DNA of 64,000 nt, from the NCBI RefSeq assembly GCF_025698545.1, contig NC_068569.1, forward strand, positions 6,448,001 through 6,512,000, given 5' to 3'. Each line of letters begins with the position of its first letter. Within the stretch, counting starts at the first letter, position 1. The notes under the pieces were generated by a model. That model saw nothing but the letters and a program-made list of their open reading frames with translations. It ran no database searches and was not told the DNA's origin. This DNA comes from Gossypium raimondii. Taxonomy: Eukaryota; Streptophyta; Magnoliopsida; Malvales; Malvaceae. Shown piece by piece: positions 6,116-32,488 of the stretch. A program made the position numbers and the translations under genes.

Positions 6116-6117
6116 GA

Positions 6118-7720: not shown

Positions 7721-7909
7721 TCAATTCAAGGATGGTATTGATCGGCATTTGTTGGATTTTTCACAGCCTCTATCATAAGGATTAGAAGGTGGTAGGCAAT
7801 TTCCTCCTTTGCATTCAGATGGATGATCTCCTCTTCCAATTGCCGGATACCCAATTGTTGGTGTCGATCTTGCTTTTGCATTTCCAATCCACAATGAGCA
7901 AACTATTTT
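7721..7909 (-). pseudogene. RALF-like signalling peptide gene, start codon not found
   Basis: An open minus-strand frame of 62 codons ending in TGA with all hallmarks of a mature RALF peptide. RALFs are secreted cysteine-rich hormones that raise apoplastic pH through FERONIA-type receptor kinases. Visible are a YPAI motif (21-24, equivalent to YISY), GRGDHPSEC, and four cysteines (33, 38, 49, 55) in the RALF spacing with NPYDRGCEKSNKCR. It resembles short Arabidopsis RALFs such as RALFL8. The frame opens inside the end of the signal peptide (SLWIGNA) right after an in-frame TAG, and no ATG or hydrophobic start is found in the next few hundred bases. It is probably an N-terminally broken copy; a missed upstream exon joined at the AG near 7910 is possible, although RALF genes are normally intronless. 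Confidence 0.72.
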
Positions 7910-7981
7910 CTATATATGTTAGATATGTACAAAATCAATTTTTTATATGCTAGATGTGTGTCAAGATCTATACAAGTTTGT

Positions 7982-7992
7982 GTTATATATAC
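7982..7992 (-). promoter_or_regulatory. TATA-like box upstream of the RALF copy
   Basis: The minus strand reads GTATATATAAC about 75 bp before the open RALF frame. It looks like a core promoter, but no start codon follows it in frame. Confidence 0.35.
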
Positions 7993-8029
7993 ACCAACGT
8001 TTGCACCACTAATATCGTAATTGTAATCT

Positions 8030-8100
8030 ATATTATATGATATTATCATTACTTATCCCATGCTTATCTAATATGTATTAGAGATAAGTATACGTAAGCT
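8030..8100 (-). repeat. Upstream block shared with the second RALF gene
   Basis: On the minus strand this reads CTTATCTCTAATACATATTAG then ATAAGCATGGGATAAG and AATGATAATATCA. Bases 22074-22138 on the plus strand carry almost the same order of words, with a 5-base insertion and a few changes. In both places the block lies upstream of a RALF-like frame, so it marks a duplicated promoter region. Confidence 0.6.
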
Positions 8101-9199
8101 TACCCAATGACTTTCCAAATTGAGAATTGAACCATCTCTCGAGATATTCAATTTGTAATTTTGAAGACCTTAGCATCTGTTTTGATTAAAATTTTAGTAT
8201 ATATTTAACCTCATATATATTAGTGATAAGTATACGGTAATTAAACTTGACATAATAGATACAATGATTCAATTCCTAATTAAATAAATCTTGAATTAAG
8301 ATTGATTCGTCAAAATAAATTATGCAATATATAAGATAAATCTAAACACGACATAAGTATAATATAAAAATAATTAAAATATGATACTGATTATAAATGG
8401 TGGATTGTGATAATATCAAATTTATATCATTTTTGAGTTGGATTTAATTAAGTTAAAATTTTGAGAAAAATGATTGTTAAACTAAGATTGTTATGAACTT
8501 AAGTTGGATCAAATGTTTCAAATTCAAAATACCTGAAGTTTTAATTCTTGATCTCATCTCTTCTCCCATACTTAATAGTGGTGGAAAATGTTGTATGATA
8601 ATTCTTCAAACTAACACAACCTTGATAATTAAAATAGGATGATAAAATTGAAGCGATCAAGTCTTTCTTGAAGAAATTGCACACTCTTGAATCTTGATGA
8701 TAAACTAGTAATAAACAACAAAGAAATTTTATCACACCTTATCCTCAAAATATAATAAACTTAATCACCCACCATACACATTACTAATTCAGAGACATTA
8801 GAAGGTACAAGTTCTACCTAAATGTCACTTTTTTACCCAATTAATCAAATTCTTAAAAGGACTTGATAATTTTTTATTTTTTTGAAGTGAGATGAAATCA
8901 CTATTTATAATAAAATTTTGAGAGAAAACGGCCTTACGCATTTACAACTTGAACAATAAACACATTTAAATTGTTTATAACTTTCACTTCCGTAGTAAAT
9001 ATGAGTTAAAATTAATTAAATAAAAAAAGCGTTTTCCATGGTAAACAGTGACATATTTTGGTTTAAATGGAACTGTTTTCCACATCCGAAAGAAAAAAAA
9101 AAACGAGAAGCATTCAGCACTACTGCGGGCCAGAAATTGGATAAGTGTTGGGCTAATCCCGCCAGCCCACTACCGAAGTTTAATTGAACAAGGAAATTA
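8101..9199. other. Intergenic, no gene seen
   Basis: AT-rich DNA with short fragmented frames only. Confidence 0.4.
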
Positions 9200-9618
9200 G
9201 AGTTAATTCCACCATTCATCCCAAACTATAACCTTCATTCTAAACTGGTCCTCAAACTTTAAGACATTCTACTTAAATCCAAAAACTATCGAGGCTATAT
9301 CAATAAGGTCCTCTTATTACTATGAGATGTTAGAGTTTATGCGGCATATTTTAAAATGTAAAAATCAAGAAAAATGAATATTGTAAAAATCTTGATTTTG
9401 AGGCTTTCAAATATTTTAAAAAACCTTTATCATTCACTCTCTCTTTTCATTTTAAATTATGTCTTATAAGATTTGACATGCCATTTAATGATTTTAATAA
9501 TAAAAGGGCCTAATTGATATAATATAAATAGTTTAAGGATGTAATTAGAATGTTTTAAATTTTAAGAAATAGTTTAAAATAAAAATAATAATTTAAGGAT
9601 ATTTACTGCAATTAACTC
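9200..9618. mobile_element. Candidate MITE with short inverted ends
   Basis: GAGTTAATT at 9200-9208 and its inverse AATTAACTC at 9610-9618 frame a 419-bp AT-rich unit with repeat-like phrases ('CCTCAAACTTTAAG', 'TTTAAGGATAT'). The target duplication is not clear. Confidence 0.35.
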
Positions 9619-10927
9619 AAGGAATCAATACATGCCAAATATATTGATATTCCAAAAAACATATATCTTTTATAAAAAAAACATTAGAGTATATAATTAC
9701 AACAACTACATATATGAAGCACGTATATTTGGAATCAAGAATTATAGAATGCAATTAGATTAATAATCAGAATTGATCAAAGTCAAACTAAGATTTATAC
9801 ATAGTAGGAATTAAGTTATAATAACTCATAAATAATTTAGATAAGGTTAAATTATATTAATAGTCACTTAATAATGGTTTTTTGTTAATTATTTTAAATT
9901 TTTAAATATTTTTATTTTTATAAAAAAAACAAAATTGATTGGATTAAGAATGTGTGGACATAAAAAAAGCAAGAATGGTGATTCCCTAGAAAAGTAAACA
10001 ATTAGCATAGTATATAAAAATGATAAGGAATCAGTCAATAGATTCAAATTCACTTCACTTGAAAAGTCAAATTCGGAATGAATTATATGAAAGCTTGCTT
10101 CTTCCACACTTTTATGTGGGAATTTCGACCCATTAACCATATGTTTTGACTCACCTTCAGATTCATGACTTTATGGATCTCTCATTCTCTCCATTTCGTG
10201 TTCTTTTCTTTTCTTTTTCTTTCTGAATTCCCTAAATTTAGCTTTCTTATCAATTTGGTTTTTTTAAGCTAAATTCATCATTAATCTTAAAAAAAAAAAA
10301 AGTAGAATTATGTTTTAACAAAACATCAAATAAAATATTAATTTTAACAATATTAGTGCAATAAACCTTATCACATTCAATGTGTAATTTATGTTAGCAT
10401 GACATTATTTATCTTATATACCGTCTCAATAAATAATTTAAAATTATAAAATACTCTAAAAAAGAAAAAAATAGTATGAAGTACATATGGTCTACGGGCT
10501 TCCCTATTTAAAATTTTAATGTTTTAGTTAAAGAAACAATAAATTGATTTTTTAATGTTTATTAATCAAATTAAACTTTTTTAAGTTAAATTAAGGGTCA
10601 AATCAACTTTAAAATAAATAATGATGAAAGATGTATACATTAAAAGTTATATTTCACCCTTAAATATGAAATCTTCATAAAAGGAGAAGAAAAACCCTTA
10701 AATGAAGTTCAACTTGTGCTAATTAATTAATTTAAGAATGTTGACCTAAGTTAGCTTGATTTTGTTACGTTAAATGATTAGTACAAATGCAATAAATATA
10801 ATAACCAAAAAAATCGAAATCATCATTAAATAAAGATAGTCTCAGTACTTATGCTTAGCTATATAGTTGCAGCTCTTAAGCATAAAATTATTGAGTTCAC
10901 AGCTGATGAAATAAGAGCTTCCCCATA
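9619..10927. other. Intergenic, no gene seen
   Basis: AT-rich, with long runs of A and short frames that do not look like protein. Confidence 0.4.
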
Positions 10928-11419
10928 ATGTCGAATCCTTGGTGCAATGATGGCAAATCTCCCCAAAATCCCTGCAATAGTAATACGGTGTTTGAAAACA
11001 GCCCGGACCTCCTTCTGGGTTGGTTCAAGAACCTGAATGCTCAACACAAACAAGAGCTTATCATAGAATTGTCGACCAAAGTGCAAGGCCTTTCAATGGA
11101 GAAACAACTCCCAACCGAAAGGGCCGAGGTAGATGATGATCTCAAGGCAAGGCATTTCCAGCAACTCCTGCAGCGACTTTCTTCCAAGAAAAACAATGTC
11201 GGGTCCAAAATCCACAAGGCATATCTCGGAGTTCAACGTCGTTATATTATTGAACATGAAGATCAACATTTGTTGAAACCTGACAAGTTGAGCAATTTGA
11301 AATCAATAGATTCAAGAGCAGGATCGCCTGTTGTGAGGAAGGAAGGTGCCATTTCTGAGGTGGGGAGTTCGCTCAATCCAGAGCTATTCAAGATTAAAAA
11401 ATTTTCCACCACAAAGTGA
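10928..11419 (+). CDS. Unassigned hydrophilic protein, 163 aa
   Basis: A single open frame starting at an ATG whose composition (many K, E, Q, S, few hydrophobic runs) is more protein-like than chance frames in this AT-rich DNA. The middle part (about residues 40-120) is likely helical and charged, with HKQELIIELSTKVQ and HFQQLLQRLSSKK. No signal peptide or membrane segment is seen, and I do not recognise a family. No clear TATA box or intron was found. It could be a real small gene, an exon of a larger one, or a decayed fragment. Confidence 0.4.
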   Translation: MSNPWCNDGKSPQNPCNSNTVFENSPDLLLGWFKNLNAQHKQELIIELSTKVQGLSMEKQLPTERAEVDDDLKARHFQQLLQRLSSKKNNVGSKIHKAYLGVQRRYIIEHEDQHLLKPDKLSNLKSIDSRAGSPVVRKEGAISEVGSSLNPELFKIKKFSTTK

Positions 11420-12626
11420 ACAAGGTGGCGCTACTCATGAATCCAGAGCTAATTAATTCAGCTGCTTATTGTTGAATTTCAATATTTCAAATTATGATTA
11501 AATATTGGAAACAAAGCTAGTTAATGCATGGTGGAAATTTGGTTCTTATATTTATGGGTTTTTTTTTAAATTAATACCTAAATTTTCATTTCGTCAAGGA
11601 AAAAAATTGTCAAATTTAAGGCTAAATGAGTATTTAAGAAAAAAAAACATACATGCAATTTTAGTATTACTATTTCTTGTTGAACATATGTTCGTGCTGC
11701 TTATTCAATAAGGAGCAATTGAATTTTAGCTATAGTGACTTTTTTTCTTTTTAAATACATGTCATGAAGTTTGACAGATGTTTCAAATTTTAGCGAGAAT
11801 TTCAATTTATGCTAATAGATAATATAAGATAAAAATCGGTGCAAATAATTTTTCTCCAAACCCTAAAAGCCACCTACTCTTTCTCTGGTTTGGTTTGTCA
11901 TTGGAGTTTAATGCTGGTAAACTAACTCCAACTTGTTGAACTTTGACCAATCGAATATTACTTTGGTTAAAATAGGTTATAAATCTTCTTTATAAATTTA
12001 AATTTTAGTTTTTTTTCTTTTTAATTTTCAGATCTTAAAGTTTAGGTCTAATTTTTAATAATGTTAAAAAATTTTAGTTAAATTTATTGATGTGACATTT
12101 CAAATAAAAAAAACTCATTTGGTAGCAATGTAACTAAAAAATGTAATAAATTGAATTTGAATTTAATAAAAATAATAATGTTAATAGTTGGACCTAAATT
12201 TTGAAATCTAGAAAATAGATGGACTAAATTTTTAGAAATAAAAATACAAAGACCAAATTTTAAATTTGTGAAAAATGTAGGAACTTACGGCATATTATAA
12301 CTAATTAATTTTCTTGTTTTTGAAAAGGGATTGCTTTTTTAGGTGAATGTACCTAAGATTAGACATGTCCAAGACTCTAGTAGCCCACTTGGCCCGACCC
12401 GATTAGGGTCGGGTTTGGACAATGATTTTTGCACCTTAATCTGACTCGGCTCAGTCTGAAATCAATTTGGATGATAAAAGATATTTATAAAATTTAAATT
12501 TGATTATAAAAGTATATAATATATCAATTACAAATATAGTTTTTTGAATAGTGAATTGGACTTTTTGGGTGGGTTGAGCCGAATTGAAAACGGGCTTGGG
12601 TTCGGAATTTTTTAAACAAAGCTTTA
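11420..12626. other. Intergenic; GGGTC-rich repeat fragment
   Basis: Mostly AT-rich. Around 12363-12615 the GC rises, with a CCCGACCCGATTAGGGTCGGG hairpin (split here as CCCGACCC / GGGTCGGG) and GGGTTGAGCC...CGGGCTTGGG text. This looks like a decayed small repeat related in style to the GGGCC-rich MITE at 5.3 kb. Confidence 0.4.
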
Positions 12627-12786
12627 GGCTCCCTTTGGAAGCAACTGCATCTCAGTGCGTTGGCTGTTTTAGGCTAAAAAAAATTGCAACTGAAACGTTA
12701 GTAAACGCAAGGCTGTTTGGAAAGCATTCTTCAGTGCGATGAGAATGCATTTCACCTCACCGGAGGCTTAATTTCAGACTGGAGCC
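12627..12786. mobile_element. Candidate small MITE with GGCTCC ends
   Basis: GGCTCC at 12627 and GGAGCC at 12781-12786 frame 160 bp that includes an internal hairpin (GCATTCT...AGAATGC) and repeated TTTGGAA words. No certain target duplication. Confidence 0.35.
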
Positions 12787-13911
12787 TTTTGTTCCAGTGA
12801 AAATTGGGTAACTTCAATTGCTTTTTTTTCCCTCTTTTACCCATATATTCTTCCGTTGCATTCTTCTTCAGGCTTTTCTGATGTTTGGTTACCCTTCTTC
12901 TCCCCTTTCCCCTTCCCCTTGGGTTGCAAATCAGTGTTCTTGGATTTTCTGTGTTTCTCTTTTTTTCTAATTGAAATTTTCATTTTTTTCCTTATTTGGT
13001 TTTGCATTTTTTTTTTAAATTTTGTGTTCTTGGATTGACAGGAGCAAAAGTTTTTGATCGGAAGTTCAATAATAAAACTGTCTTGCTTCATTTCCATTAT
13101 TTATTGCTTGGTTAACATTCTGTAAGGCCTTTGTAATTATGCTTCAATATCGTGTTTCAGTTTTTTTTTTGTTGATTATTTTCTAATCTTGAGTTTCCCC
13201 TATTCTGCATCAGATATGCATGTACTATGAGTCCATAATCCATATTATTTCAGTGATAACATGAGGGGTGTACTAAGGACATTGTTATTTGATCCCTCTT
13301 TTTTCTTTTTCTCTTATTTAAGGGACTTACATTTGTTATGCTCAGGTGTAAACCTTGATGGAATCTGTTTTCACTTTTCTTTCTCAGAGAGTTTTTACAT
13401 AGCTTTATGGCTCTGTAATGATGGTCATTGGAGTATATCCGTCCTATGGATTTTTGATCTAGCATTCTCGTCTCCCAAAAATATTTTAAGTTTTACATTT
13501 TTCCTTTTATTTTCACTGGGCTTTGGGAGAGGTTGTTAAAACTTTTGCAAAACCAGTAAACTTTTGTGGTATCTACCAGATTGGTTCAATGCCATTTGCT
13601 TATTTTCTTGGCATATGGTGGAAGTCGTGACTCGTGAAAAGCATTAAAAAATAGCTCGTTTTAGTATGTATAACCTAAGTTGTCGGATTTTGGATCAGTT
13701 AATATCCAGAATCAAAGAATCACTGCAAACGTGATATATTGTTCTTATGGTTCCTTGCTATTCTGTAGAATCGGTGAGTTTATTTGCTATTCTGTAGAAT
13801 CGGAGTTGTTCTTATGATCAATGTTGCAAACTTTTGCTTCTAAAGATGCTTGCAGTGGGAATTTTTATTGTTAGACTCCTGTGACTTCTTTTATGACTCT
13901 TCAATAGTCTG

Positions 13912-13971
13912 ATCAATAAAGTCTTTGTTTTGAATGGTTTTCTTTTGTTGCAAAGGATGGTGCGCAGGATG
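13912..13971 (+). repeat. Direct repeat, copy 1 (partner 15004-15062)
   Basis: AGTCTTTGTTTTGAATGG followed by TTTTCTTTTGTTGCAAAGGA and TGGTGCGCAGGATG; the second copy differs by one base in the last 52. The copies lie on either side of the BLISTER-like exons. Confidence 0.8.
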
Positions 13972-14165
13972 AATTCAGTTTTATGCTGTATTTTAAAATG
14001 TTATGCTGTCTGTATGCTGATCTGTATTTTATTCTCTTGTGTTCTTTGTCTGGTGATGTTCAAATTGTTAGGGAGCTTGTTACAAATTTGTTAACGGTTT
14101 TGTTTATTAATGTTTTCTCTGTTCATTGTCTTGGCTTTTCTAATCTATTCATCCTTATTCTGCAG

Positions 14166-14529
14166 CATATTGAAGACTTGACTCAGGAAAAGTTTTCACT
14201 GCAACGAGCTCTTGAGGCCTCATGTACATTAGCAGAATCTTTGGTTGCTGAAAACTCATCTTTGACTGATAGTTATAACCAACAGGTTTGTTTCCAAATA
14301 TTAGATTAGCAGCATTACCGGCTGTCATGGTCATGATATGTTTTTTTTATCAGTTCATCGTGCTTCTCCATTGCAGCACTTTCTGTCATTTCATTATCCT
14401 AATTTGTATTCTCAATCCTTCTTAAAAATCTCTTAATTATCTTATATTTACTTTTCTCCCCAGAGAAGCATTGTCAACCGGCTAAAATCTGACATGGAGA
14501 GCTTACAAGAAGAAATCAAGGCCCAACTG
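14166..14529 (+). pseudogene. BLI: Fragment of a BLISTER-like coiled-coil gene (two exons)
   Basis: Two consecutive coding exons with good splice borders: 14166-14285 (40 codons, HIEDLTQEKFSLQRALEAS ... SSLTDSYNQQ) and 14464-14529 (22 codons, RSIVNRLKSDMESLQEEIKA). Both keep phase 0. The text closely matches the coiled-coil part of Arabidopsis BLISTER, a Polycomb-associated nuclear protein needed for cell identity and stress responses, as I recall it. The long 5' exons and the 3' half of the gene are not found in the flanks, and the next sequence is repeat-like, so this is a displaced piece with its introns, arising by genomic duplication and not retroposition. About 12.8-13.1 kb has pyrimidine-rich, 5'-leader-like text that may belong to the same piece. 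Confidence 0.6.
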
Positions 14530-15003
14530 GTTAGTATTTACTATATTTAGGTACTGTAGTCACTTCAAATTGTTAGAAATAATTGAATCTCATATAAATA
14601 CATACCACTTTATGTCATATGGTTAATGCAATGGTGTTTGTATGGCATGTGTCATGTGTGCACATATGCACATTGGTTTAGATTTGTTTGTGCTTAGATA
14701 AAGTTCTATCTAAAAATTGAGATACCTACTGCTGTCTATTGCATCTCTGGTGGTACCCATTAACCAAAAAATGCAGTACAAGGAACCCTCTTGAGGTTGT
14801 CCATGTCTATGCCCTTTGATCTACACTTGAAGGGGCCTTAAGTAGTGCTATCCCAAAGTTATTAAATATTGGGTTTGTTTCGATTTTATATTCAGGTTGG
14901 GCCTCTCAACCTATTGCCTATTGGTTTTAGGTTAGATGCTTAATAACTTTTTATATATAAAAATGATCCTAAGGCTGGAGCTTGTCCATTTTTCCTGGAT
15001 TCA

Positions 15004-15062
15004 ATCAATAAGTCTTTGTTTTGAATGGTTTTCTTTTGTTGCAAAGGATGGTGCACAGGATG
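15004..15062 (+). repeat. Direct repeat, copy 2 (partner 13912-13971)
   Basis: Near-identical to the first copy up to GGATG at 15058-15062, after which the sequences part company. The break point marks a rearrangement junction. Confidence 0.8.
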
Positions 15063-15194
15063 TTGTTGAACTTTGGCCTGCAATGCAATAGGAAACCAGC
15101 AGCAAACCAGCGTGCAGACCAGCATCCAAGCTGAACCAGATAAGCAGCAGCATTTTGTTTATTTTGTTCATTTGTAACTTGATTTAGTTGCAAT

Positions 15195-15405
15195 GTAATT
15201 TATACTTAAAGTTAGTAGGAGTAGTTGTTGATTTATGTTTTATGTTATAGCTGGTATGTCAGCTACATTTTGTTTGTAATTCTATCTAGGCTTTAGTCAT
15301 GTATCTTATACTTGACTCGTTCAAGCTTTTGATGGTTTTTGAACCATGAACAATAAGAAATGAATCAGATATGTTGATGAAGAATTGAACATGTGGTTTC
15401 TATTG
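15195..15405 (+). repeat. 211-bp tandem duplication, unit 1
   Basis: Begins GTAATTTATACTTAAAGTTA and ends GTGGTTTCTATTG. It is followed directly by a second unit of the same length with one base difference by eye. It carries no recognisable coding sequence; AACAATAAGAAATG near its end is polyadenylation-like. Confidence 0.9.
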
Positions 15406-15616
15406 GTAATTTATACTTAAAGTTAGTAGGAGTAGTTGTTGATTTATGTTTGATGTTATAGCTGGTATGTCAGCTACATTTTGTTTGTAATTCTATCTAG
15501 GCTTTAGTCATGTATCTTATACTTGACTCGTTCAAGCTTTTGATGGTTTTTGAACCATGAACAATAAGAAATGAATCAGATATGTTGATGAAGAATTGAA
15601 CATGTGGTTTCTATTG
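15406..15616 (+). repeat. 211-bp tandem duplication, unit 2
   Basis: Same sequence as unit 1 except TTTGATG for TTTTATG. Such identity implies a very recent event, or an assembly artefact. Confidence 0.9.
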
Positions 15617-16410
15617 GATTTCTTCTGAAATTAAGAAATGAATCATTTTTCATTCATCATTGCATTGCTTCATCTTTAGCTCAAATGTGAATCATTTTGC
15701 ATTTTCTCTTCTGATGAATATTCCAATCTATTGGACAAATACACTAGTGTGATGTTGGAAACATGGATCTAGATTTGAATTGTATGCCTTGGGTTTCAAT
15801 ATAAATGAAGCAGAAATTATATATTTAAATTTGATTTATTATATAAATAGTAAGAATGAAATGAAAAGTATAAAAATATTTTGAAAATATGAATGTTACA
15901 TTTTAAAAATATTTTATCCAATTTCTGTTGAAATAATGTTTTGATTGATTGTAGGCTAAACATGGATTTAACAATGCTAATGTTATAAAGTCATATTTTG
16001 ACGTCTTTAATCTTATATTATAACTCCAATGTTAAACTAAATCAAACTTAAAGTTTAAGTTAATTTTATCACCCCAATGTCTTATAATATTGTATTAGTA
16101 AAACATTTTAAAGGATTTGGTATGTAGGCAAAATTTCATACAAACATAGATAACGAAATTAGTTCAATTGAGTAACACTGTTAAACCTTCTTGTTAAACT
16201 GAGCTGTTCAGTAACTTATGTGCTAGGAATTAGTAAAAACCAACAGTAGCATATTTATGTTATTGTAATAATTCATTTTTAATTATTTATTATTGAAAAT
16301 AAATATAATTGTAATAATTTTTAATCATTTATTAAATTTATAATTGTTAAATAATTTTAAAAATTTATATTATATATCATTTTTAATCTAATGTCCTTAA
16401 AAGTCATTTT
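15617..16410. other. Intergenic, AT-rich
   Basis: No gene supported. The first 150 bp continue the LTR-like or 3'-flank-like text of the duplication; the rest is AT-rich. Confidence 0.4.
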
Positions 16411-16419
16411 CTATTTTTA

Positions 16420-16580
16420 CCTCACCGCTACAGCTGCGTTTGAATCCAAACACACACTCCACCGCTGTTTCTAATCTTACTGCTACAGTACCCAATCTCA
16501 CTGCTACAGTAACTAATCTCACCGCCACCGCTGTTTTTAACCTCACCGGAGCTAAACACACCGCCCATCCAAACTAAGCC
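16420..16580. repeat. MITE-like end with ACCGCTACAG subrepeats
   Basis: Repeated CTCACCGCTACAGC / CTCACTGCTACAGTA words close with CCATCCAAACTAAGCC. This is the terminal style of a common plant non-autonomous DNA transposon; the partner end is not certain. Confidence 0.45.
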
Positions 16581-19500
16581 GTAGTCCAACTTGACCCATG
16601 GACTCCTCTACTTGAGATGTCCCTCTATTATAGGGATATGATTAAATTAATCTCTCTACTATTAAATAGATTAATTTAGTCCCTGTACTATTAAAAAAAT
16701 TAAATAAGGCCAATTTGTAATAGAGCTAATCTTAATATTTAATGAGGTATTATTTTAAAGTTTTTATAATTCAGTAAATGAAATTTTTATTTGGAATTGA
16801 AATTTTTTAATATATTTATATAATAAATTTAAATTTTATCACAACTTGAGCTTATTCAATTTTTAATAGTATATAAAATAAATTGATACATTTAATAATA
16901 ATAGAATGACTAATTAAATCCAATCACTCTAATATTGAGTACACCTAAGTCGCTTAACCTTTTTTTTTTTTTATATTTCCATTCAACTTTACTTCTTATT
17001 ATTATTATTTACAAGAGAAGGTATTGTATGAAACTGTGATTCCACGTTATCCTTATTCCTTTCCAATAGAAGAATGACAAATCAATTTTTTACTCCTGAT
17101 TTTCAGTTTTTTCCTCCTTACAAAATTTAAATCCAACTAAAAATGCTAAAAATCAGGAGAAAAAGTTTGATTTGTCATCATCTTATTGAAAAAGATAAAG
17201 ATAACGTTGAATCACAATTTTATACAATTCTTTCTCTGTTTACAAATGTGATTTTATTAAATTTTTTATTTACAAGCGAAGGCAATTCTAAATAATATTT
17301 AATTGTTCCTTTAGATATTTATTGAAATATATATTTTAATTTTAATTAGTTTAATATTAAAAATAGTAAAATATAGAGTATTAAGTAAAATTTCAGAAAG
17401 AGGCAACTCAATAAATCATAATGTCTGTCATTTAAATATTAAATAAGATTGTAAAAAATTAAAAATCAAATTCCAACCTTAACTTTTAATTTAATGGTAC
17501 TACGTGTTCATCTTAAAATTAACTTTATAAGTCCAATCACCTAGTATATAATTATATTTATTAAATATATAAATCTTTAAACCTGTCTAATATCTATATC
17601 ATATTGATATAAAATATTGTATATTGAATGATTAAATTTTTATATAAAATAAATAATTAAAAATTTAAACTTATATTAAATTTAATATATATAATTTATA
17701 TGAAAAAATATAAAAAATTATGATTAAATTGTTAAAATATTAATAGAGGAAAGGATGTAAAATTATTTTAATATAATCTTTCCCATGATTTAAAACTTTT
17801 TTCTTCAAAAAAGAAAAGAAAGTGGGCATATGGGGTGACCATGGGAAGCGGGCACCTAATGTCGCTAATGGACCAACTATCGCTTTCAAACCTCAGATGG
17901 GTGCAGTGGGGATGAACGGCTGATGATGTAGGATGCTTTTGAATTGAATCTGACAGAGTTTGACTGTACCAGGCTTTTAGTAATAATAATACTGGGTTTT
18001 TTAGGCCCACACTTCTGCTGGTACTCAAATACTTATTCCTTGCACGAGGGCAGGCCGCTTCCCCATTATGTCGGTTCATAAACCCATATTTAAATTTGAT
18101 TTGAGTTAAAATTTTATGATCGTTGAATTCATCTCCCGGAAGAGGATTTCTGTTCACCAAAGGTCTGCAGTAAAGTTTTTGATGGTTGTTCCGGAAAAAG
18201 ATGTTGAATCTTTGGTTTCATGAGATAAGTTTCTCTCCTATATTAGACTTTGAATAACCAAAAATCAACAAAGTTGTGAGTTCATCATAGAAGCAAGTTT
18301 TGAGTTCCTTCATTTTATTAGATGATTAACGTGCAAGGTTGATCGATATCATGGGATTTTGACTTGGTAAGATCAATCATTGATGGGAAACATAATTGCA
18401 GGTCCATATATATGACTCCTCAATTATTGCCCTACCTTCCCTTTCACTATTTCAATTCATAGTATTTTAGAAAAAATAATCCCAAGAATATAATTTATTA
18501 ATATACACTTCCATATTCATATTTGAATGTCTCACATATAAATATATATATTTTTAAATTAGATGAAATATTTATATAACCTTTCATTGTACGAGAGCTT
18601 CAAATTTTGGCCACAAAATTTAAGAAATCCAATAAATTCATGCAATTTCTGATTTCATTTTATAAAGGAAAACATAAGCTTAAAACGTTTGATATAAAAG
18701 TTTGAAAGAAATTAACCTTACAGCTTGGCTGGTAATTTGAATAAAAGAGCTGGATATCAAAATTATGGTATCTAATGTCGGTAGCAGTGATTAATATTCT
18801 AATCACAAGTGCTTTTAAGGAAGAAAATGCCTGGTCATAAAATACACTGTAATATTATTTATCAAATATAATTAATAGAAAGGCTGAGGCTGACCCACAT
18901 ATTTCTTCCACAGTGGATTTTGTAGATTATAATAATGCATGTAGACTAAATCATGCAAGCAAACAAAAGAACATATCATCCTCAATCAGTGTTCAAAATT
19001 ATAAAAGCTTAGGCAAATTTTGCAGAAACTTGTTTAATTTCTTGCATTTACTTTAATACAAATCTGAAACAAATCCTTTTGGTTTGACTAATCAAATAAT
19101 CCCAAAGAAAAAGGTATTTAACAAAATCAAAATGAATCAACGTGGAGCAAAGTGTATGCCTAATAAATCATCGATGTTTTCTTGATATAGCTGATATGAC
19201 CCGAATTTGCTTTCATGGTGCTTCACACTCTGTAAGAAAAAGAAGAAACTAAAGATTCCTTAAAGATAAGTATGGTGAAATGTCATCCATGAACTGCAGC
19301 TTGAACAAATTTGAACCTTGGAGCCACATGGGAAGGACATGGACAAAAGTCTAACAATAAGCATTGTGTTCTAAATTTCTCATAGAAAAGGAAAGAAACA
19401 AAAGAGTTCAATCAATTTCACTCCCCAGCTCCCCCATATTGAAAAGACGCAAATTAGACCATGTGTTTAAACTTATATTATAATTCGGATTTAAGTGACT

Positions 19501-19990: not shown

Positions 19991-19997
19991 TTTTGTG

Positions 19998-20005
19998 TAT
20001 AAATT
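19998..20005 (+). promoter_or_regulatory. TATA box of the A/B-barrel gene
   Basis: TATAAATT lies about 110 bp before the ATG at 20111, the usual plant distance. Confidence 0.55.
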
Positions 20006-22138: not shown

Positions 22139-22143
22139 CTATT

Positions 22144-22300
22144 TGGTAACAATTCAGCAATAAAGAAGTAGTGAATTATTCTCAATTGATTTCTCAATCC
22201 AATGTCATGTATTTAATACACGTAAAACAACTAACTGAAGTTATTAACAACTTGCTAACTAACATTAACTAATAGTAACTGTAAACAGTTATTCCTAACA
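22144..22300 (-). repeat. 3' LTR of the Copia element
   Basis: 157 bp, ending CCTAACA on the plus strand, about 96% identical to the 5' LTR. Confidence 0.93.
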
Positions 22301-22364
22301 TGCCCCGTACTTGTCAACTTTTCTTTTCGTAAAAGACTTCCTGATTCATGACAACAACTCGAAG

Positions 22365-23555
22365 CTAATCCCGAAACTTGGTGAACATTGCTATTGACAG
22401 TGGTTTTGTCAATATATCCCCAATTTGGTCAGAACCAGGTACATGACCTACTTGGACCATCCCATCTGCAACCTTTTCTCTGACAAAGAACAGGTCTAAC
22501 TCGACATGCTTAAACTTTGAGTGCATAACAGGATTCCCTGTTACCGCAACCACAGCTGAGCTATCACACCATATCAAAGCCTTATTCGGAACTGGAACAC
22601 ATAACTCAGTCAATAAGGAACGGATCCACACCATTTCTACAGTAACATAAGCAACATTCTTGTATCCTGCTTTTGTTGTAGACCTAGAGACTACTTGCTC
22701 ATTCGTTGAGCTCCAGGAGATTGGATTCCCCCCAAGAAACACACCAAAACCTGAGGTTGACCTGCGATCATCCACATCTGACCCCCAACTGGCATCGGAG
22801 TATCCTTCAAGCAAGAAATTTGAGGCTCGGGTGAACTTTAACCCATAGTTCAGTGTTCCTCGTAAATACCTTAATATCCTTTTCACAGTCTTGAAATGCA
22901 AGTCCAAAGGTTTATGCATGAACTGGTAAACCTTGTTTACGGAGTAAGCAATGTCTGGCCTAGTGATTACCACGTATTGTAAGGCACCAACAATGCTCCT
23001 GTAATGATGCTCATCCTCAACAGGACTGTCTGTATTAACTGACAGATGACATGTGGTGACCATCGGTATTGGCAAGCCATTTGATCTATCCACGGAGGCT
23101 CTTTGAAGTAGATCTAGAATATATTTTTTCTGAGTAAGGAACAATCCTTGTGAAGTGTAGTCAACTTTGATGCCAAGAAAATAGCTCAACTTCCCCAGGT
23201 CTTTCAAAGAAAACTTATCATTAAGTTGAGTAACAAACTTGTCTATAGCCTGAGAATCGTTCCCAGTGATGATAATGTCATCAACATAGACTAAAATATA
23301 TGAAACCAAAAACTCTTTCAACGTATGAAACCAATCCCGAGGTGCTTGTTTGAGACCATACAAGGCCTTTCTTAGTTTACAGACGAGTTGCTCACCATTT
23401 GGCCCTTGTTGCTCGAACCCTGGAGGCTGCATCATGTAAATTTCCTCACTCAAATCCCCATTCAAAAATGCATTATTAATGTCAACTTGTTTAAGTGGCC
23501 AGTTTAAAGATATTGCCAAAGTAATGACCACTCTAATTGTAGTTGGCTTAACCAT
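22365..23555 (-). pseudogene. Copia fossil: reverse transcriptase and RNase H region
   Basis: The recognisable RT motif YVDDIIITGN and the downstream Copia text (KDLGKLSYFLGIKV, GYSDASWGSD, STSGFGVFLG, HVELDLFFVREKV) identify the 3' part of a Copia polyprotein. The rest of the RT region continues to about 24282. The element is broken. Confidence 0.92.
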
Positions 23556-24287
23556 AGGGCTGAAAGTTTCCTGGAAGTCAATGCCAGCTTCCTACAGGTA
23601 GCCCTTGACAACTAGTCTGCCCTTGTACCGAGCAATTGAGCCATCTGCATGTTTTTTGATCTTAAAAATCCACTTGCAGCCTACAGTGCGATGACCTTCA
23701 GGTAAGGGCATAAGATCCCAAGTACGATTAGCGGGCAAAGCACTGTATTAAACTGTGCAGCTATTGTCCAAGCAATACTCTGAAAAGCTTCGATTATGGT
23801 CATAGGCTCCTTCTCAGCCAGAATAGAAGCAAAGACTTTGGGCTTAAAAATACCACTTTTGGAGCGAGTCTGCATGGGGTGAATATTCACACTCGAAGGA
23901 GCTCCTGTAGTACACTTAGTCTGACCACAGGACGTAGGCACATCAGCTGCTACTGGGAAGTCAGTAGAAGAGCTGGAAGGAGATTGATTACTAGGAGAAT
24001 GTACTAGGGAATGTGCCACAAGAGAGACCCTGGCTGGTCTTGTGACTGTCCGTGTGAAGGTGCGTCCAGGAGAATCATTAGCCATAATCAGAGGAAGCAC
24101 AGTCTGCTAATGAAGATCATTTGTAGAGCTAACTTGAGATTGTGAACAGAAACCATCATGAAATGGAAACTGAGCCTCATAAAATCGAACATGTCGAGAT
24201 AGGAAAACCAGACCATCTTCAGGAAGACACCTATAACCCTTTGTATTAGGAGCACTACTAAGAAATACACACATTTGAGATCGAAAC

Positions 24288-26789
24288 TGTAATGACCCAA
24301 AAATTCACGGACATTGGAAAAGTACATTATCGGGCCTCCGTCTTAGTAAATTGAGTTCGAAAATAATTATTAGAAATATTTACTAGACTAGTTGTGTGTT
24401 TAATTAGGTTTTAGATAGATGAATTTAGCTTAATTAAGAGTAATTAGTAAAAAAGATTAAATTACAATAGAAGTGAAAGTTTAATTATAGATTAAAATAA
24501 AATAAGAGGGACTAAATAGGTAAATAAGCCAATGGCTTAAGATTAGGCAACAAAACATGAAAAATCTTAGATTTTTCTTGATTTATATTATAAAAATATT
24601 ATTAAATTAAAATATTATAAATTATATTAATTAAAATTAAGATAATATATTATAGGAAACAAATAAGATAAAGACAATTGTGTTGTGATAAAATAATACA
24701 TGTGTAAAATATATAAAACACACTTGTAATAAAATAAAACATTTTCTTATAATTTAAGTAAAAGATATTTATGAATAAAATATTATTATATGATTATAAT
24801 ATATGATTATTATTATTATTATTAACTAATGCATAAAAGAAATAAAGTAAGTAAGTAAAACAAAAAGAAAAAGAAACAAAAGAAGAACAGAAAAGAAACA
24901 GAGAAAGAGACGAAAACAGGGGAAGAAAAAGGGAAAGAAAAGAAAGAGGGAAAATTGAGATTTTGAAGCTTGAAGTTTAATAGGTAAGCTAAATCAAGTC
25001 CTTTTCTCATAAATTTGATGTTTTTTGGAACCCTAGAGTGAAATACTCTTGGATTTAAGTTGAAAATTTGAAAGTTAATAGATTTTTGAGTAGGGTTTAT
25101 GTTGAATAAATGATGGAATTGAGGTTTTATTTGATAGAATTTCTAGTTAGAGTTGATAAAAGGATTAAATATGCTGAAACTTTGGTAGTTAAATTTGAGT
25201 TTAGAAGAAATTTGAATAGAAATAGAGTGTGAATTAAATTAGAAAAGTAAATAAATTTAGTTAGGATTAAATTGGAATTAAAGTATAAATTAGATAGAAA
25301 TTTTATTATTATTATAAATTAATGTTGTAATTGATGGTGTAAATTATTATCATTTTCGTAGCTAACAAGGAACTCGAGGCATCGGCACACAAAGGAAAGG
25401 AGAAGGTTATTAAGGAATAATCGAGCAAAATTCGGGTTTGTATTACTATAATTCAAATTATTTATTATTTGATGATAAATTTAAATTATGTGTATGGTAA
25501 GCATATGATAAGGTAAGTGACTTTATTGAATTGAATTTGGAAAAAAAAATTAAATTGAATGAGAAAAGTATGTGTTGGTATTGAACTGTGTTTAATTAGT
25601 GAATGGAAAAAGTATAATTGATATTGAAAATGAATTTTTTGAAATAAAAGTGAAAATTAGATTGTGAAATTTATATACCCTATTAACTAGTCGGGCTGAG
25701 TCGGATATAATTGGCATGCCATAGGATTTAGAAGAGTACGGGATTTATCGGCTTTGCCGATCAGGCACTTTATGTGTCGTATCTCAGGCACTTTATGTGT
25801 CGTATCAGACACCTCGTGTGTCGTTTCAGGCACTTATGTGTCGTATACTGATCATGTACTATGTACCGTTTTAGGCACAATGTGCCGTATTGGTGTGTTT
25901 GGGTTGGAATCCGTGTATCCGTCAAAGTCCAAATTGTTAATAGGGTGAATAATTGAAATAAGAAAATTTAAAATTGTGGATTGAAATTTGAGATTGAAAA
26001 TGAAAGGCATGAATTTAATGTTTATGTAGTGATTGAAATTATTACATGTGATATGTGATTGAAATTGAAGAATAGCTAAAAATTGTATTGTTATTGTTAG
26101 TTAATGAAAGTTTATAAATTAATTGATATTTAAGAAATCGGATAGTTACATGCTTGGTAATTATAATTCTTTGTTGTTATTATAATTTGAATTATGGTAA
26201 TACCACTGAGTATACAAAACTCAGCGTACGGTTGTTTCCGTGCGCAGGTTGAAAAGGGATCAGAGTCTCGGTTCAGCATCCAGGACAATCCCGACTCCGA
26301 CATAAAGATTTTGGTGATGTTTTCTTCCTTTAAGAGAAAGTGGTATGTACATAAGAATTATAATAGTTATTTTGGTATGTTATATAGTTTTATTGTAAAG
26401 TAAGATATTATGTATTTTGATGATTATATTAGCAAATTGGTAGAAGTCCTTTATGGCATTGGTATCGAATTGAAATGACTTGATTAGTTTTATGTGTTAA
26501 TTAGAAAAGATAATAGGATTTTTATTAAATAAGTTGTTATGTCAATATGTCAAGTAAGATTTAAGTATATAAATGCCTTGGTTGAAATACTGGAATTGGG
26601 TTGGTTATGTTTGAAATTTTGCAGGGGGTTGTATGTAAAAATAAGCAGAAATGCTGCCGAAATTTTTATAAAAAAAATGAATGAAGTCAATTAGTAAAAT
26701 TTATATGAATTATTTGTAAATAGCTTGATATGTCATGAAATGTCTTGTAACCCTGTTTCGACGACGGTTTGGGGTTAGGGGGTGTTACA
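24288..26789 (+). mobile_element. Solo gypsy-type LTR inserted in the Copia element
   Basis: A 2,502-bp block from TGTAATGACCC to GGTGTTACA, flanked by the target duplication GAAAC at 24283-24287 and 26790-26794. It has no internal coding region, so it is what remains after recombination between the two LTRs of a full element. Its style (TGTAA...TTACA, length) matches the other gypsy LTRs here, but it lies in the opposite orientation. It is younger than the Copia insertion that it interrupts. Confidence 0.9.
25760..25885 (+). repeat. Short tandem motif inside the solo LTR
   Basis: About five degenerate units of roughly 22 bp built on CAGGCACTTTATGTGTCGTAT. Variable-number blocks of this kind are typical of LTR promoter regions. 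Confidence 0.7.
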
Positions 26790-26794
26790 GAAAC

Positions 26795-27868
26795 TATAAC
26801 TTATGCTATTGGAATGGCCTCAGATCAGGAAAGCAAGCACAGCCAAACATCCGAAGCAGACCATAGTCAGGTTTAAGTTTGTGAAGTGCTTTATAAGGAC
26901 TAACTTGATGCAGAACAGGAGTAGGTAGTCTATTGGTCAAGTAAACAGCATGGGCAAAGGCATAAAATTAAAATTTCAAAGGCATACCAGACTGAGCTAG
27001 AAGAGACAAGCCCATATAAACTATTTGTCTGTGCTTTCTTTCAGCAACCCTATTCTGCTCTGAGGTGTAGGGACAAGTGACCCTGTGTTGTAGACTAAGT
27101 CGAGAGAGCTTCTTTGACAAGACACGATATTCTCCCCTCCAGTCAGTTTGTAGCATTTTAACAGAATGACCAAATTGAACTTTAACCATCTGATAAAAAT
27201 TTAAAAAACACTGCACCACCTCAGACTTGTTTTTGAGAAAATAAATCCAAGCGTATCTGCTATACATGTCAACAAAAGAAACGTAATAAGAGAAACCATT
27301 TGAAGTCATATGAGCTGGTCCTCATATGTCAGATACCACAAGTTCAAAAAGGAAAGAGTACATTGTATGTAAAGAAGGAAAAAGTAGCTTGTGAGCCTTG
27401 CCTAACTGATAAGCTGTACATATTCGAGGCAAACTACTTTGTTTGAAAAGAATTTTTCAAGATTTTAACACATGAGCAAATGCGATATGGCAAGGATGGC
27501 CAAGCTTGTTGTGCCACAAAGAAACAGATGAAATCTGAGCATTGTTCAGCAAAAATGAGCTAGGCTTTGAAGTAGAACTGGCAGTGTTGGGAGCAGACTT
27601 TGAAAACTAAAATCTGTATAAGCCCTTATGCATGTGGCCCTCTAGCAGAGTCATCCCTGTCTAAATGTCATTCACAAAACATAGAAACATGTGAAATTTA
27701 AAATAGACACTATTATCTTTAGCAAACTGACCCACTGAAATCAGATTCTTGCAAACTGTAGGAACATTTAAAACATTTTGAAGACGCGGGAGTCTGGAGC
27801 CAGCCAAGATAGTAGATGATCCTACATTAGCTATGGAAACCGACTCACCATTTCCCATAGTGACACGA
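26795..27868 (-). pseudogene. Copia fossil: integrase and pre-integrase region
   Basis: MTSNGFSYYVSFVDMYSRY and the following text is the start of a retroviral-type integrase core (rve); near 27661-27858 the GAG-pre-integrase part is seen (GNGESVSIANVGSS, LQNVLNVPTVCKNLISVGQ). Broken copy. Confidence 0.88.
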
Positions 27869-27873
27869 CTTGT

Positions 27874-30809
27874 TGTAACACCCCTTACCCGTATTCAACT
27901 CTGGAATAGGGTATGAGGCATTACTAGAACACTTACACATGTAAACGTATTAAACTGAGTTACAAAATTTCATTCAAATTTAAACTCTTCAAATTTTTAG
28001 CATGCTTTTATAATTCTTTATAACATATCCTCAAAATATTATATTCATAACAAATAGGGCCTACGAGACCCGATACTTACTTATGTAATTCAAAGCTCCA
28101 TTTCCATTTTATTCAATTCACAATATTTCATGTTCACAATTCAAATTAATTTCTCAATCCAATATATATATTTCAATACCACACTCTCATACTATGAAAC
28201 TTTATTTTCCCATATGAGCTTAAACCATGATCATCACATATCAAAGACAAATGTTCTTGACATTTCCATGACATAAACCGAATTAATCAATGCAACTCAA
28301 TGATATAATCATCCATATATCATTATTATCATATATATATATCAAGACTAAATTTCTTATACATTTGGTCAATTGCTTTTCAAAACCGCAATAGTTCCTT
28401 CGGTACCAATACGTATTTACCATTCAATTTAACATTTACCGATTATAATCGGGCATATGACAATTATACACAATTATTTCCTACATTTTATTGTCCTCCT
28501 CCTCCTCTCCATTCCACATCCTTTATGTGTATATCACATTTAAACAACATTAACTATAATTTCTCTATTCACTAACATGTATATTCAAAGCTGTCTATTC
28601 GAGTCATAGTCACTAAATTATTTTTACCCGGAGCTACAGAACTCCAAATTAAGATCCATAAATTTTATCCGAAACTAGATTCACATATATTCTTACCATA
28701 AAATTTTCATAATTTTTGGTTTAGCCAAATAGTACAGTTTATTCTTTAAAGTTTCCCCTGTTTCACTGTTTGACAGTTCTGACCTCTCTTCACTAAAAAT
28801 TAATTATCTCACTGTACAGAATTCGGATATAGTTTCCGTTTGTTTCTCATAAAAATAGATTCACTGATAATTCTAAACATATAAACTTTATCCCGTAATT
28901 ATTTTTGTACAATTTTTTTTACAATTTTCCAAAGTCAAAACAGGGGATTCCAAACTCATTCTGACTCTATCTAATTAAACTTCAAATATCTCAAAATATA
29001 TAACTCTTTTGCTTTTTCTATTTCTTTTATGTGAAAATAGACTCATTAAGCTTCAATTTCATATATTATTCAGCCTCTAATTAAATTTCCACCATTTTGG
29101 TGATTTTCAAAGTCACACAACTGTTGCTGTCTAAACTGTTTTGTTGCTAAATGTACTCTTTCATAATTTCATTTTTCACTTTCAATCACAATTCAATTCA
29201 AAATTCACTTTTCCATTTCTAAGTCGATATTCAATTCAGTTCCACACCTATATTCATTATTCAATTACACTTAGTCAATTTCCGTTGAACACTCGGAATA
29301 TACATAGATACGTAGAGAATTAGCACATAAGTGCCACAATCGATATGTAGCCGGTTACCATCGATCGTGTAGAAGGTTACCATCGATACGTGGCCGGCTT
29401 ACCACGATACGTGGCCGGTTACCACGATACGTGTCGGCTACCATCGATCGTAGCCGAAGCTTACCATCGATACGTGGCCGGAAGCTACCACCGATCAATA
29501 ACACCGGAAATGTCCACGGGCTGCTCACACAAGCCGTCGTGTCTGCGCAACACATGCTAGATCACCCAGCACCGGGACTCACTGTAACACTGTAACATCG
29601 ATCTCTAGTGACATGTCACTTGTATCCACTTCTATTCCTAAGTTCAACCGAATTTACACTTAACACTTTATTTTAAACACTTTATCACTTGAATAATTCA
29701 TGAACAATTTTCCTTCCACATTCAATATTAATTCACATATCAAATATAATTCACAATTTATAAAAATATAACTATTATTTACACGTAACTTACTTTGATG
29801 CAATAATATAAAAATTTAGCAATTTAGTCTTTAACCTTTCCTTTTCTCCGGTCAAGGTCGATTCCACTTCTTTCTTGATCTATAATAACACATTTGACTT
29901 ATTTAGTACTCACATTTATCAAAACAGTCCTTGACTCAAACTTTGGTAAAATTATAATTTTGCCCTAAACTTTTACATATTTACACTTTTGCCCCAAAGC
30001 TCGTAAATTAAACTTTATCCCTTATTCTTATGTATTATGACATGTTGAACATTTTTCCCTTCTATAGAAACATCAAATTCCAACTCTAACACTTACTTAT
30101 GAACATTTAGTATTTTTATCGATTATGTCGTTTTACTCGTTTTCACTCAAAATCGCTTAGCAAAAGTTGCTTAACATAATTCTAAGCTTCATATTCTATC
30201 ATGAAACATCAAAATTCACACTTTTCATCTATGGGTAATTTTTCGACATAAATTCTAGCTCGAATTAATGGTAGAGATAGCTTAAGCAAGTTATCGGGAT
30301 GCTAAAAATACAAAGAACAAGAAAAGCGGGCTAGAACGGACTTACCATGAAGCTTGGAAGATGAACAAACCCTAGCCATGGTGTTCCCTTGCTACATACG
30401 GCCATGAAGAAAAGAATTGAAGAAGATGATAATTTATTTCATGCTATTTTGTCTTTATTCATTAATTAAGGCATTTTACCAAAATGCCCTTAAATAGCTT
30501 ACTTACTAACCATGTCTATTTTTGTCCATAAATAACCAATGGTCTAATTACCATTTAAGGACCTCCAATTTAAAATTTCATAATAATTAGACACCTCTAA
30601 CTTGTAGAACTCAACTTTTGCACTTTTTACAATTTAGTCCTTTTGACTAAATTGAGTGCCCAAACGTCGAAATTTTCGAACAAAATTTTTACAAAATAAT
30701 TCCGTGAAATCGTAGACCATAAAAATATGAGAAAAATAATTTTTTTTCCTTGTCAGATTTGTGGTCCCGAAACCACTGTTCCGACTAGGCCCAAAATCGG
30801 GCTGTTACA
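27874..30809 (-). mobile_element. Second solo gypsy-type LTR inserted in the Copia element
   Basis: A 2,936-bp block from TGTAACACCCC to GGGCTGTTACA, flanked by the target duplication CTTGT at 27869-27873 and 30810-30814. It contains no internal coding region. It shares long stretches with the 5' LTR at 147-2392, including the CCTCCTCTCCATTCCACATC word and the region after it, so both belong to one family and have the same orientation. Confidence 0.9.
29338..29495. repeat. Tandem motif inside the second solo LTR
   Basis: About seven degenerate units of roughly 22 bp built on ACCATCGATACGTGGCCGG. It takes the same place within the LTR as the GCACTT...GTGTCGT block of the other solo LTR, but has a different core sequence. 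Confidence 0.7.
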
Positions 30810-30814
30810 CTTGT

Positions 30815-31990
30815 ACCTGTGTAAGGAGAAGCATTTGTGAGATTGGACATTTCACATGTAACATGATTCATTGCACCAGAATCAGGATACCAGGTCTGAC
30901 CAGAGAGGAAGGGAGCAGGAGCTCGGGTAGGTGGTGGATGAGAAAACGAGCCACAACAATGAACCATGGATGAGCATGCGGTAGGAGAAGATGAAAAATC
31001 AGCATTGTGAACCTGATGATAGTTGACTGAAGGGTTTTGACTAACATCAGAAAAATTCTCATTAAACCTATGATAATAGGTCTGAACAACATGGCCGATC
31101 TTCCTACATAACTGACACTGTGGCCTAAAGTGAGGCCAGCCCTGACCAGTACCTCGAGTTCTCCCACGAGACCAGCCTCGGCCTAACCCACTTTGCCCTT
31201 GCTTAGAAGTCTGAGAATAAGCAAGTTTCGAACCGTCTGTGCTATCTTGATGTTTAGTAACCAAATTTGCTTGCAAAGGAACTTTTGCCAATAGAGCTAG
31301 TTGTCTTGCCTCACAGTCAATAAGCATATTAGTGAGCAAGTCCAGAGATATTGGAGTTGCAGAAGCAGGGACTCGGATAGAATCATACTCAACAGATAGT
31401 CCAGCCAAGGTAGCACTGATTTGTTCTCTCTCAGTTACCAAACTACCAACTGCCGTTAAGCTATCAGTGAGAGTCTTTACCTTGGCCAAATATTCTTTAA
31501 TGGTGAGGTTAGCCTTCTTGATTGAGTACAAAGTATGATGCATACTCAAAATCTTGATACTAGATGTGGTACCAAACCTTCTTTCAATAGTGGTCCAGAT
31601 ATCAAAACTTGTCTTAGCTTTCGTTAGATGAACCAAGACTTCATCAGTAACAGTCGACAGAAGCCAAGAAGTTAGAAATTTATCCTATTTCCTATGAACA
31701 AGAAAAGCGGGATTCTCAACAAGTTGACCATCAACCCCTGCAAGAAAAGAAGGAGGGACAGAAACCATGCCCAGCACAAACCCTTCAAGACTATAGCCTT
31801 CAAGAATCAACATAAGTTGATGCTTCCACAACAAAAAAATATGCTCAGCAAGTTTGATCATATCATGTTTGGCAAAGTAATAAACTGTTGATGAACCACC
31901 ACTGCCAAGGCCCTGCGAATGGACTGCTTCGCCAGTATTGGAAGAGTGACGCGGTGTATCAAACCCTGGTACTGCCTCAGTGGCCATGAA
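30815..31990 (-). pseudogene. Copia fossil: gag and zinc-knuckle/protease start
   Basis: TKAKTSFDIWTTIERRFG and the following 200 residues are a Copia gag (UBN2 type). A zinc-knuckle-like CQLCRKIGH and a YPDSGAMNHVT protease-type DSG follow. The N-terminal part continues toward 31990. Broken copy. Confidence 0.88.
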
Positions 31991-32034
31991 CAGAGAAGAA
32001 AATAAGGAAAAAAAAGCGTTATATAAAAAAAATT

Positions 32035-32048
32035 GGCTCTTGATACCA
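32035..32048 (-). other. Copia primer-binding site
   Basis: The minus strand reads TGGTATCAAGAGCC directly after the 5' LTR, matching the 3' end of initiator-methionine tRNA. Confidence 0.8.
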
Positions 32049-32205
32049 TGTTAACAATTCAACAATAAAGAAGTAGTGAATTATTCTCAATTAATTTCTC
32101 AAACCAATGTCATGTATTTAATACACGTAAAACAACTAACTGAAGTTATTAACAACTTGCTAACTAACATTAACTAACAGTAATTGTAAACAGTTATTCC
32201 TAACA
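32049..32205 (-). repeat. 5' LTR of the Copia element
   Basis: 157 bp from TGTTAACAATTC to CCTAACA on the plus strand, next to the target duplication CTATT at 32206-32210. Its outer edge lies 58 bp before the ATG of the RALF-like gene. Confidence 0.93.
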
Positions 32206-32207
32206 CT

Positions 32208-32216
32208 ATTATATGT
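32208..32216 (+). promoter_or_regulatory. Possible TATA box of the RALF-like gene
   Basis: ATTATATGT follows the Copia target duplication and lies about 50 bp before the ATG. The insertion seems to have landed just upstream of the core promoter. Confidence 0.35.
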
Positions 32217-32263
32217 ACGAAACTATAACTTGGTAGTCTATCTTTGAAATTGCATGCAGAAAT

Positions 32264-32488
32264 ATGGCGATTTCTATGGAAAAGAAAATCGTGGCATTAT
32301 GCATTTGTGCAATGGTGGTGAGCTCATTCTTGATTGGAAATGCAACATCAACACCAACAACAACACCAACATTTGAAGAGGAAAAACATGCAGTTGCATG
32401 CAGTCGAGGACATCGCCTACCACCTCCCAATCCTTCTTCTGATAGAGGTTGCGAAGCATCCAACAGATGCCGAACCACACCACCCTAG
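32264..32488 (+). CDS. RALF-like secreted peptide, divergent, 74 aa
   Basis: Intronless. The N-terminus MAISMEKKIVALCICAMVVS to IGNA (about residue 27) is a clear signal peptide; a short T/P-rich stretch follows, then KHAVACSRGH and NPSSDRGCEASNRCR. The end fits the RALF pattern NPxxRGCxxxxxCR and the KHAVAC word fits RALFs like Arabidopsis RALFL8 (DHAVHC). It would be an apoplastic signal for FERONIA-type receptors. Oddities: only three mature cysteines remain (46, 63, 69), the second of the usual four being absent, and there is no YISY/YPAI motif, so one disulfide and the receptor-contact motif are lost. AATAAA at 32562-32567 could serve as poly(A) signal. It may be a divergent family member or a decaying gene; either way it keeps an open frame. 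Confidence 0.75.
   Translation: MAISMEKKIVALCICAMVVSSFLIGNATSTPTTTPTFEEEKHAVACSRGHRLPPPNPSSDRGCEASNRCRTTPP

Follow-up and report, generated by a model that had tools for sequence, protein, structure and literature searches.

The window analysed here, a stretch of 64,000 nucleotides at positions 6448001-6512000 of contig 5 in the Gossypium raimondii assembly (750.8 Mb, 281 contigs), contains two RALF-related copies in opposite orientation: P7, at 7.7 kb on the minus strand, and P32, at 32.3 kb on the plus strand. The two copies are of common descent and are sisters. P7 has lost its start codon and signal peptide, P32 has lost the second conserved cysteine and the YPAI motif, and a Copia-type long terminal repeat (LTR) retroelement sits at the TATA position of P32.

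The two RALF-related copies

The open frame of P7 (7724-7909, minus strand, 62 codons) encodes a RALF-related mature region and reads KIVCSLWIGNAKARSTPTIGYPAIGRGDHPSECKGGNCLPPSNPYDRGCEKSNKCRSIPSLN. It ends at a stop codon at 7721-7723 and is closed on its upstream side by an in-frame TAG at 7910-7912. The mature region retains the four conserved cysteines and YPAIGRGDH, and it matches the Pfam RALF profile (PF05498) with 23.9 bits, a narrow pass of the cut-off of 22, and with 22.4 bits in the genome search. The nearest solved structure is that of Arabidopsis RALF8 (6NU4, E 0.00092), with which P7 shares the YPAI.RGDH stretch, NPY.RGC, and the four-cysteine layout. An earlier note, made from the letters of the window, had described a textbook RALF end at this position, and its coordinates, strand, and residues are confirmed.

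The region upstream of the mature frame (7910-8049, minus strand) corresponds, by alignment to relatives, to an eroded signal peptide, start codon, and 5' leader. The aligned start falls within 7952-7955, where there is no ATG; the letters there are TCT, or ATC if the alignment is shifted by one base. With this aligned start, the TAG, and the eroded region, P7 possesses neither a start codon nor a signal peptide. The earlier note had reported the start and most of the signal peptide as lost, and the missing ATG bears out the first point, but the alignment shows that the signal-peptide stretch was worn by substitutions and indels and was not cleanly deleted. Start codon and mature peptide lie in a single exon in the intact relatives, so P7 no longer has its ancestral start; a peptide made from this copy would no longer be exported from the cell. 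A rival reading is that P7 is still expressed, its signal peptide coming from an upstream exon not yet recognised and spliced at the AG just before 7909. The open frame does begin right after TATATAG (its last three bases being the TAG at 7910-7912), which is a possible acceptor, and 7 out of 54 ATGs in the 3.1 kb scanned upstream open a short open reading frame (ORF) with a hydrophobic stretch. However, because start and mature peptide share one exon in the intact relatives, and the aligned start of P7 has no ATG, such an exon is highly improbable.

The P32 ORF (32264-32488, plus strand, 74 aa) reads MAISMEKKIVALCICAMVVSSFLIGNATSTPTTTPTFEEEKHAVACSRGHRLPPPNPSSDRGCEASNRCRTTPP. Reading of the sequence and alignment to relatives identify an ATG and a hydrophobic, signal-peptide-like N-terminus, followed by a mature region with three cysteines. 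P32 thus lacks the full set of four, as the codon at the cysteine 2 site (32414-32416, plus strand) is CGC (Arg), whereas P7 (TGC) and the intact relatives have Cys. The YPAI site is now a threonine/proline-rich run. These points agree with the earlier note, which had stated that P32 keeps its ATG, signal peptide, and open frame and is without cysteine 2 and YPAI. One gapped alignment hints that YPAI may have been lost through a compensated frameshift, although we do not claim this. Neither the Pfam RALF profile (in ORF and genome profile searches) nor RALF8 matched P32 up to E 10. The RALF descent of P32 is instead shown by the tree and by pairwise matches to the best intact relative (E 4.2e-8, 42% identity, query residues 4-71) and to P7 (E 2.5e-7, 50% identity).

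A tree built from 18 rows and 168 columns places P7 and P32 as a sister pair with support of 100/98. Sequence comparison also identified common flanks on both sides. The common 3' flank extends over ∼170-270 nt and is located at 7435-7720 (minus strand) for P7 and at 32489-32761 (plus strand) for P32; the genome DNA search gives a shorter extent, reaching 32655 on the P32 side. The 5' flank block of P7 (8206-8040, minus strand) is 65% identical to its counterpart at the P32 locus, rising to 80% over the core at 8101-8040. When 921 bases covering P7 and its flanks were compared with the whole genome at the DNA level, in a search that passes over very common words, only the P7 and P32 loci were recovered, in three pieces. 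A larger inverted duplication was considered and rejected because strong homology does not extend beyond the gene and its near flanks (∼770 bp on the P7 side), which points to a small duplication; weaker AT-rich matches between the two loci were not counted as homology. The homology, the flanks, and the tree uphold the common origin proposed in the earlier note, although the upstream block that it had included is not adjacent to P32.

Comparison with known peptides suggests that the pair is of the clade IV type. As described in parts of Campbell and Turner (2017; PMC5258720), clade IV RALF-related peptides are short and almost without RRXL, have YISY in 3 out of 264 cases, often lack cysteine 2, and are expressed mainly in inflorescence tissue in Arabidopsis and maize; the same parts list AtRALF8 as a clade IV member and cite earlier work in which many RALFs arose from tandem duplication. 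Neither P7 nor P32 has the RRXL dibasic cleavage site or the YISY motif of true RALFs (clades I-III), and both show the clade IV traits, although the P7 precursor is no longer whole. By these traits they may be assigned to clade IV. AtRALF8 inhibits root growth in an FER-dependent manner, is mostly disordered, and has disulfides joining C1-C2 and C3-C4, according to sections of PMC6511734. Unlike RALF8, P7 has no start codon or signal peptide, and P32 has no cysteine 2 or YPAI. By analogy with the RALF8 bridges, P32 would retain the C3-C4 bridge and have no partner for cysteine 1; if made, the peptide would be secreted with the C-terminal disulfide alone. Such a product would be no new kind of molecule, since clade IV forms that are short and without RRXL, YISY, and cysteine 2 appear in the same parts of PMC5258720, and a three-cysteine RALF-related peptide without YISY is already known. 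P32 differs from those members in its retroelement at the TATA position and its lack of detected constraint. What is specific to this locus is the history of the pair and the Copia at the TATA position. Literature queries on RALF with retrotransposon and pseudogene, or on two-cysteine YISY forms, returned no title on this topic.

The Copia element beside P32

A Copia-type element of ∼10 kb with broken frames (22144-32205, minus strand) ends 58 nt from the ATG of P32 and reads leftward, away from it. The left LTR (3' LTR, 22144-22300, minus strand) and the right LTR (5' LTR, 32049-32205, minus strand) are 157 bp each, start with TG and finish with CA, and differ at 6 out of 157 bases (96.2% identity, K80 distance of 0.039). 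They are bordered by a target-site duplication, CTATT, at 22139-22143 and 32206-32210 (plus strand), the right copy of which coincides with the TATA position in the family alignment. At its inner edge the right LTR carries, on the other strand, TGGTATCAAGAGCC, which we take by eye to be a primer-binding site. Domain pieces occur in the leftward order gag, Pol_BBD, integrase, and reverse transcriptase, with the integrase piece (30.9 bits) just below the Pfam cut-off of 32.6. The TG..CA LTRs, target duplication, presumed primer-binding site, and gag-integrase-reverse transcriptase order together identify a Copia-type LTR retrotransposon. The insertion would be 1.5, 2.8, or 9.8 million years old for substitution rates of 1.3e-8, 7e-9, or 2e-9 per site per year, respectively. 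A repeat with 77% identity has one copy outside the element (804-1469) and one inside (28491-29154); given the outside copy, the Copia may hold a nested insertion, which would help account for its 10-kb length.

The element is located between P32 and its 5' block, which P7 keeps adjacent. The displaced 5' flank of P32 (21983-22138, plus strand) matches the P7 5' flank to 22136 and now lies ∼10 kb upstream of the gene, so that the insertion would have split the core promoter of P32 from its upstream sequence. At the TATA-like position, assigned by eye, four of the seven relatives displayed in the nucleotide alignment have CTATATA or CTATAAA, the other three have GATAAAAAAC, and P32 has CTATTATATG. 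The latter is still present between the right LTR and the ATG, and some transcription of P32 is possible from this remaining TATA-like core.

Relatives, selection, and the decay of the pair

Searches with P32 and with P7 converge on one group of relatives, consisting of an array on contig 11 (12.89-12.96 Mb), three further copies on the same contig (13.08-13.15 Mb), and one copy on contig 10. The genome contains at least 16 relatives of the pair, and 16 were aligned with P7 and P32. The P32 search gave 18 hits, P32 and P7 included; of the others, all but L047 (partial) and L048 (E 2.19) entered the alignment. The P7 search contributed L062 and L063, bringing the total to 16, and its five weakest hits (L067-L071, other RALFs) were excluded. 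The pair resembles these relatives in its single-exon layout, signal-peptide core (EKKI..L.IC...), LPPP..DRGC.....CR end, and alignable core promoter. In contrast to the contig-11 array, the pair on contig 5 has outer flanks of its own, and it ends in NP..DRGCE.SN.CR where most contig-11 copies have NGYDRGCSH.KRCR.

Nine of the relatives (L032, L034, L037, L038, L039, L041, L043, L045, and L046) look intact, in that they retain the ATG, an open frame, and all four mature cysteines, and the other seven are decayed. In-frame stops occur in five (L033, L036, L040, L044, and L062), cysteine 2 is replaced in L042, and the signal peptide is truncated in L063. L062 and the excluded fragment L047 have a recognisable mature region with the signal-peptide region out of frame, and L047 is also without cysteine 2. 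Both modes of decay seen in P7 and P32 therefore recur among the relatives, and no special complementarity is needed. The earlier note had read the pair as decaying in complementary ways; the opposite patterns of loss are supported. Unequal decay of the two copies was also considered and rejected, as Tajima tests with five outgroups (p 0.49, 0.30, 0.38, 0.29, and 0.02) gave no consistent difference.

The ratio of nonsynonymous to synonymous substitution rates (dN/dS) between P7 and P32 is 1.38 over 59 codons, compared with 0.21-0.98 in nine control pairs of array relatives. Codon models, which took in 5 of the 16 relatives, gave a background dN/dS of 0.36 over 44 codons, with 0.70 on the P7 branch and 1.01 on the P32 branch (a value of 1 was not rejected for either) and 0.91 on the branch of the pair. 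The test was repeated on the 28 least ambiguous codons because P7 is poorly aligned over its short N-terminal stretch, and the pair branch then reached 1.70 against a background of 0.38 (p 0.036 against the background and p 0.41 against 1). These branch models, whose power is low, detected no purifying selection on the P7 or P32 branch. Consistent with this, identity between P7 and P32 in the mature region (72.3%) is not above that in the common 5' block (72.5%); over 7910-8049 it is 57.5% (106 aligned bases).

Several results argue the other way, for constraint on at least one copy. Pairing P7 or P32 with five relatives gives dN/dS of 0.37-0.96, and when the branches are fitted separately on 28 codons P7 has a background-like 0.40 and P32 has 4.32, with 1 again rejected for neither. 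The relaxation tests are weak (p 0.036 on 28 codons; twice the log-likelihood difference of ∼3.1 on 44 codons). The mature region is also better kept than the near (63.4%) and far (48.6%) 3' flanks. When neutral drift was simulated with substitutions only, the P7 mature region stayed open with four cysteines in ∼5% of runs at 0.2 substitutions per site, and the P32 ORF kept its ATG and open frame in ∼16%. Judging from the better-kept mature region and the low simulated survival, constraint probably acted on at least one of the copies during some of their history.

These results bear on whether P32 could still be a working, diverged RALF-related peptide, with P7 alone dead. The retained ATG, signal-peptide-like N-terminus, and open frame fit this reading, as do the persistence of CTATTATATG between LTR and ATG and the many clade IV members without cysteine 2, YISY being found in only 3/264 (parts of PMC5258720). 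On the other hand, the branch dN/dS of P32, which the earlier note had named as a check, is 1.01 (44 codons) or 4.32 (28 codons), neither significantly different from 1 and neither indicating purifying selection; its upstream sequence was moved 10 kb by the Copia, and it has no Pfam RALF match. A working P32 is thus unlikely. The earlier note had further suggested that P32, if it alone is expressed, perhaps makes a decoy or a dead peptide. To read P32 as a secreted decoy, or as an antagonist in RALF signalling, follows a logic of sequence only, as it looks secreted and lacks the receptor-contact motif; parts of PMC5258720 also mention that clade IV peptides might act as antagonists. The same dN/dS values of about 1 or more, the displacement by the Copia at the TATA position, and the missing Pfam match count against a decoy, and the altered form shows no detected constraint in tests of low power. 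The proposal is unsupported, and we give it hardly any credence.

We consider it quite probable that P7 and P32 are two sister RALF-related copies that decayed differently by birth-and-death turnover, that their complementarity is due to chance, and that the Copia displaced the upstream sequence of P32. Their ancestor would have been a single clade IV-type RALF-related gene (short and RALF8-like, without a dibasic cleavage site), and the pair may be an outlier of the contig-11 tandem family. For at least their recent history, both copies appear to have drifted without effective constraint, and the complementary look would represent two draws from ordinary gene turnover without a division of labour. 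Most likely, a fast-turning family has left here two relics, or else one relic beside a gene that weakly survives.

Other RALF-like forms in the genome

The remainder of the window contains ordinary-looking plant genes, including an AP2-domain gene (3772-4791), a DUF868 gene (36844-37788), and a partial NAD-dependent epimerase-like gene (59829-60338). A minisatellite-like block of degenerate TTAGGG-like repeats (5819-6457) is located between inverted repeat arms at 5053-5258 and 6573-6772, which are 82% alike.

Across the assembly, the RALF profile search yielded 101 matches (11 marked below the cut-off), many of them clustered on contigs 7, 11, 12, and 193. P7 is among these matches and P32 is absent from them. 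For closer reading 30 were cut out and 18 more were later fetched, together with two further stretches, L090 (the contig-10 copy again) and L091 (unused). A search of NCBIfam gave nothing useful. A further RALF-related cluster on contig 12 (20965080-20998184) has a mature type of YIHPGVLDPC..NTYNRGCSRHHRCRQ, and one of its members, L088, apparently has tyrosine at the cysteine 2 site.

A large clustered family of secreted-looking ORFs of ∼67 aa (L076-L084 and L087) is located on contigs 7 (21.8-23.5 Mb), 193, and 2 (24.7-24.8 Mb). The match of these cysteine-poor ORFs to the RALF profile is limited to its C-terminal part (..VNPWNRGCSRLTRCRS). Among the seven that were read, from eight named loci, three have the last two mature cysteines only, three have one more (SYCR), and one has SYCR with the RGC cysteine gone. 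A search for the family at E ≤ 0.001 returned 40 matches, of which 38 rows are on contigs 7, 193, and 2 (some loci being split over two rows) and two weak ones are on contig 8; 25 of the 38 rows are near full length and stop-free. Contig 193 may represent contig 7 sequence in an alternative copy. The pooled ratio of nonsynonymous to synonymous differences per site (pN/pS) among the six copies compared is 0.56, which hints at mild constraint. It could be imagined that P32 is a retained and secreted three-cysteine antagonist, its control rewired by the Copia at the TATA position, beside this separate cysteine-poor RALF-like array. If true, disulfide loss would be a repeated route to new signals in this genome, but we regard this as very unlikely.

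The pair itself is an ordinary finding that shows RALF-related birth-and-death turnover at base-pair detail, with a datable retroelement at one core promoter. The more useful observation is the cysteine-poor array: among the 101 RALF-profile matches, this large group with many open frames would offer a natural test of which disulfide is dispensable.

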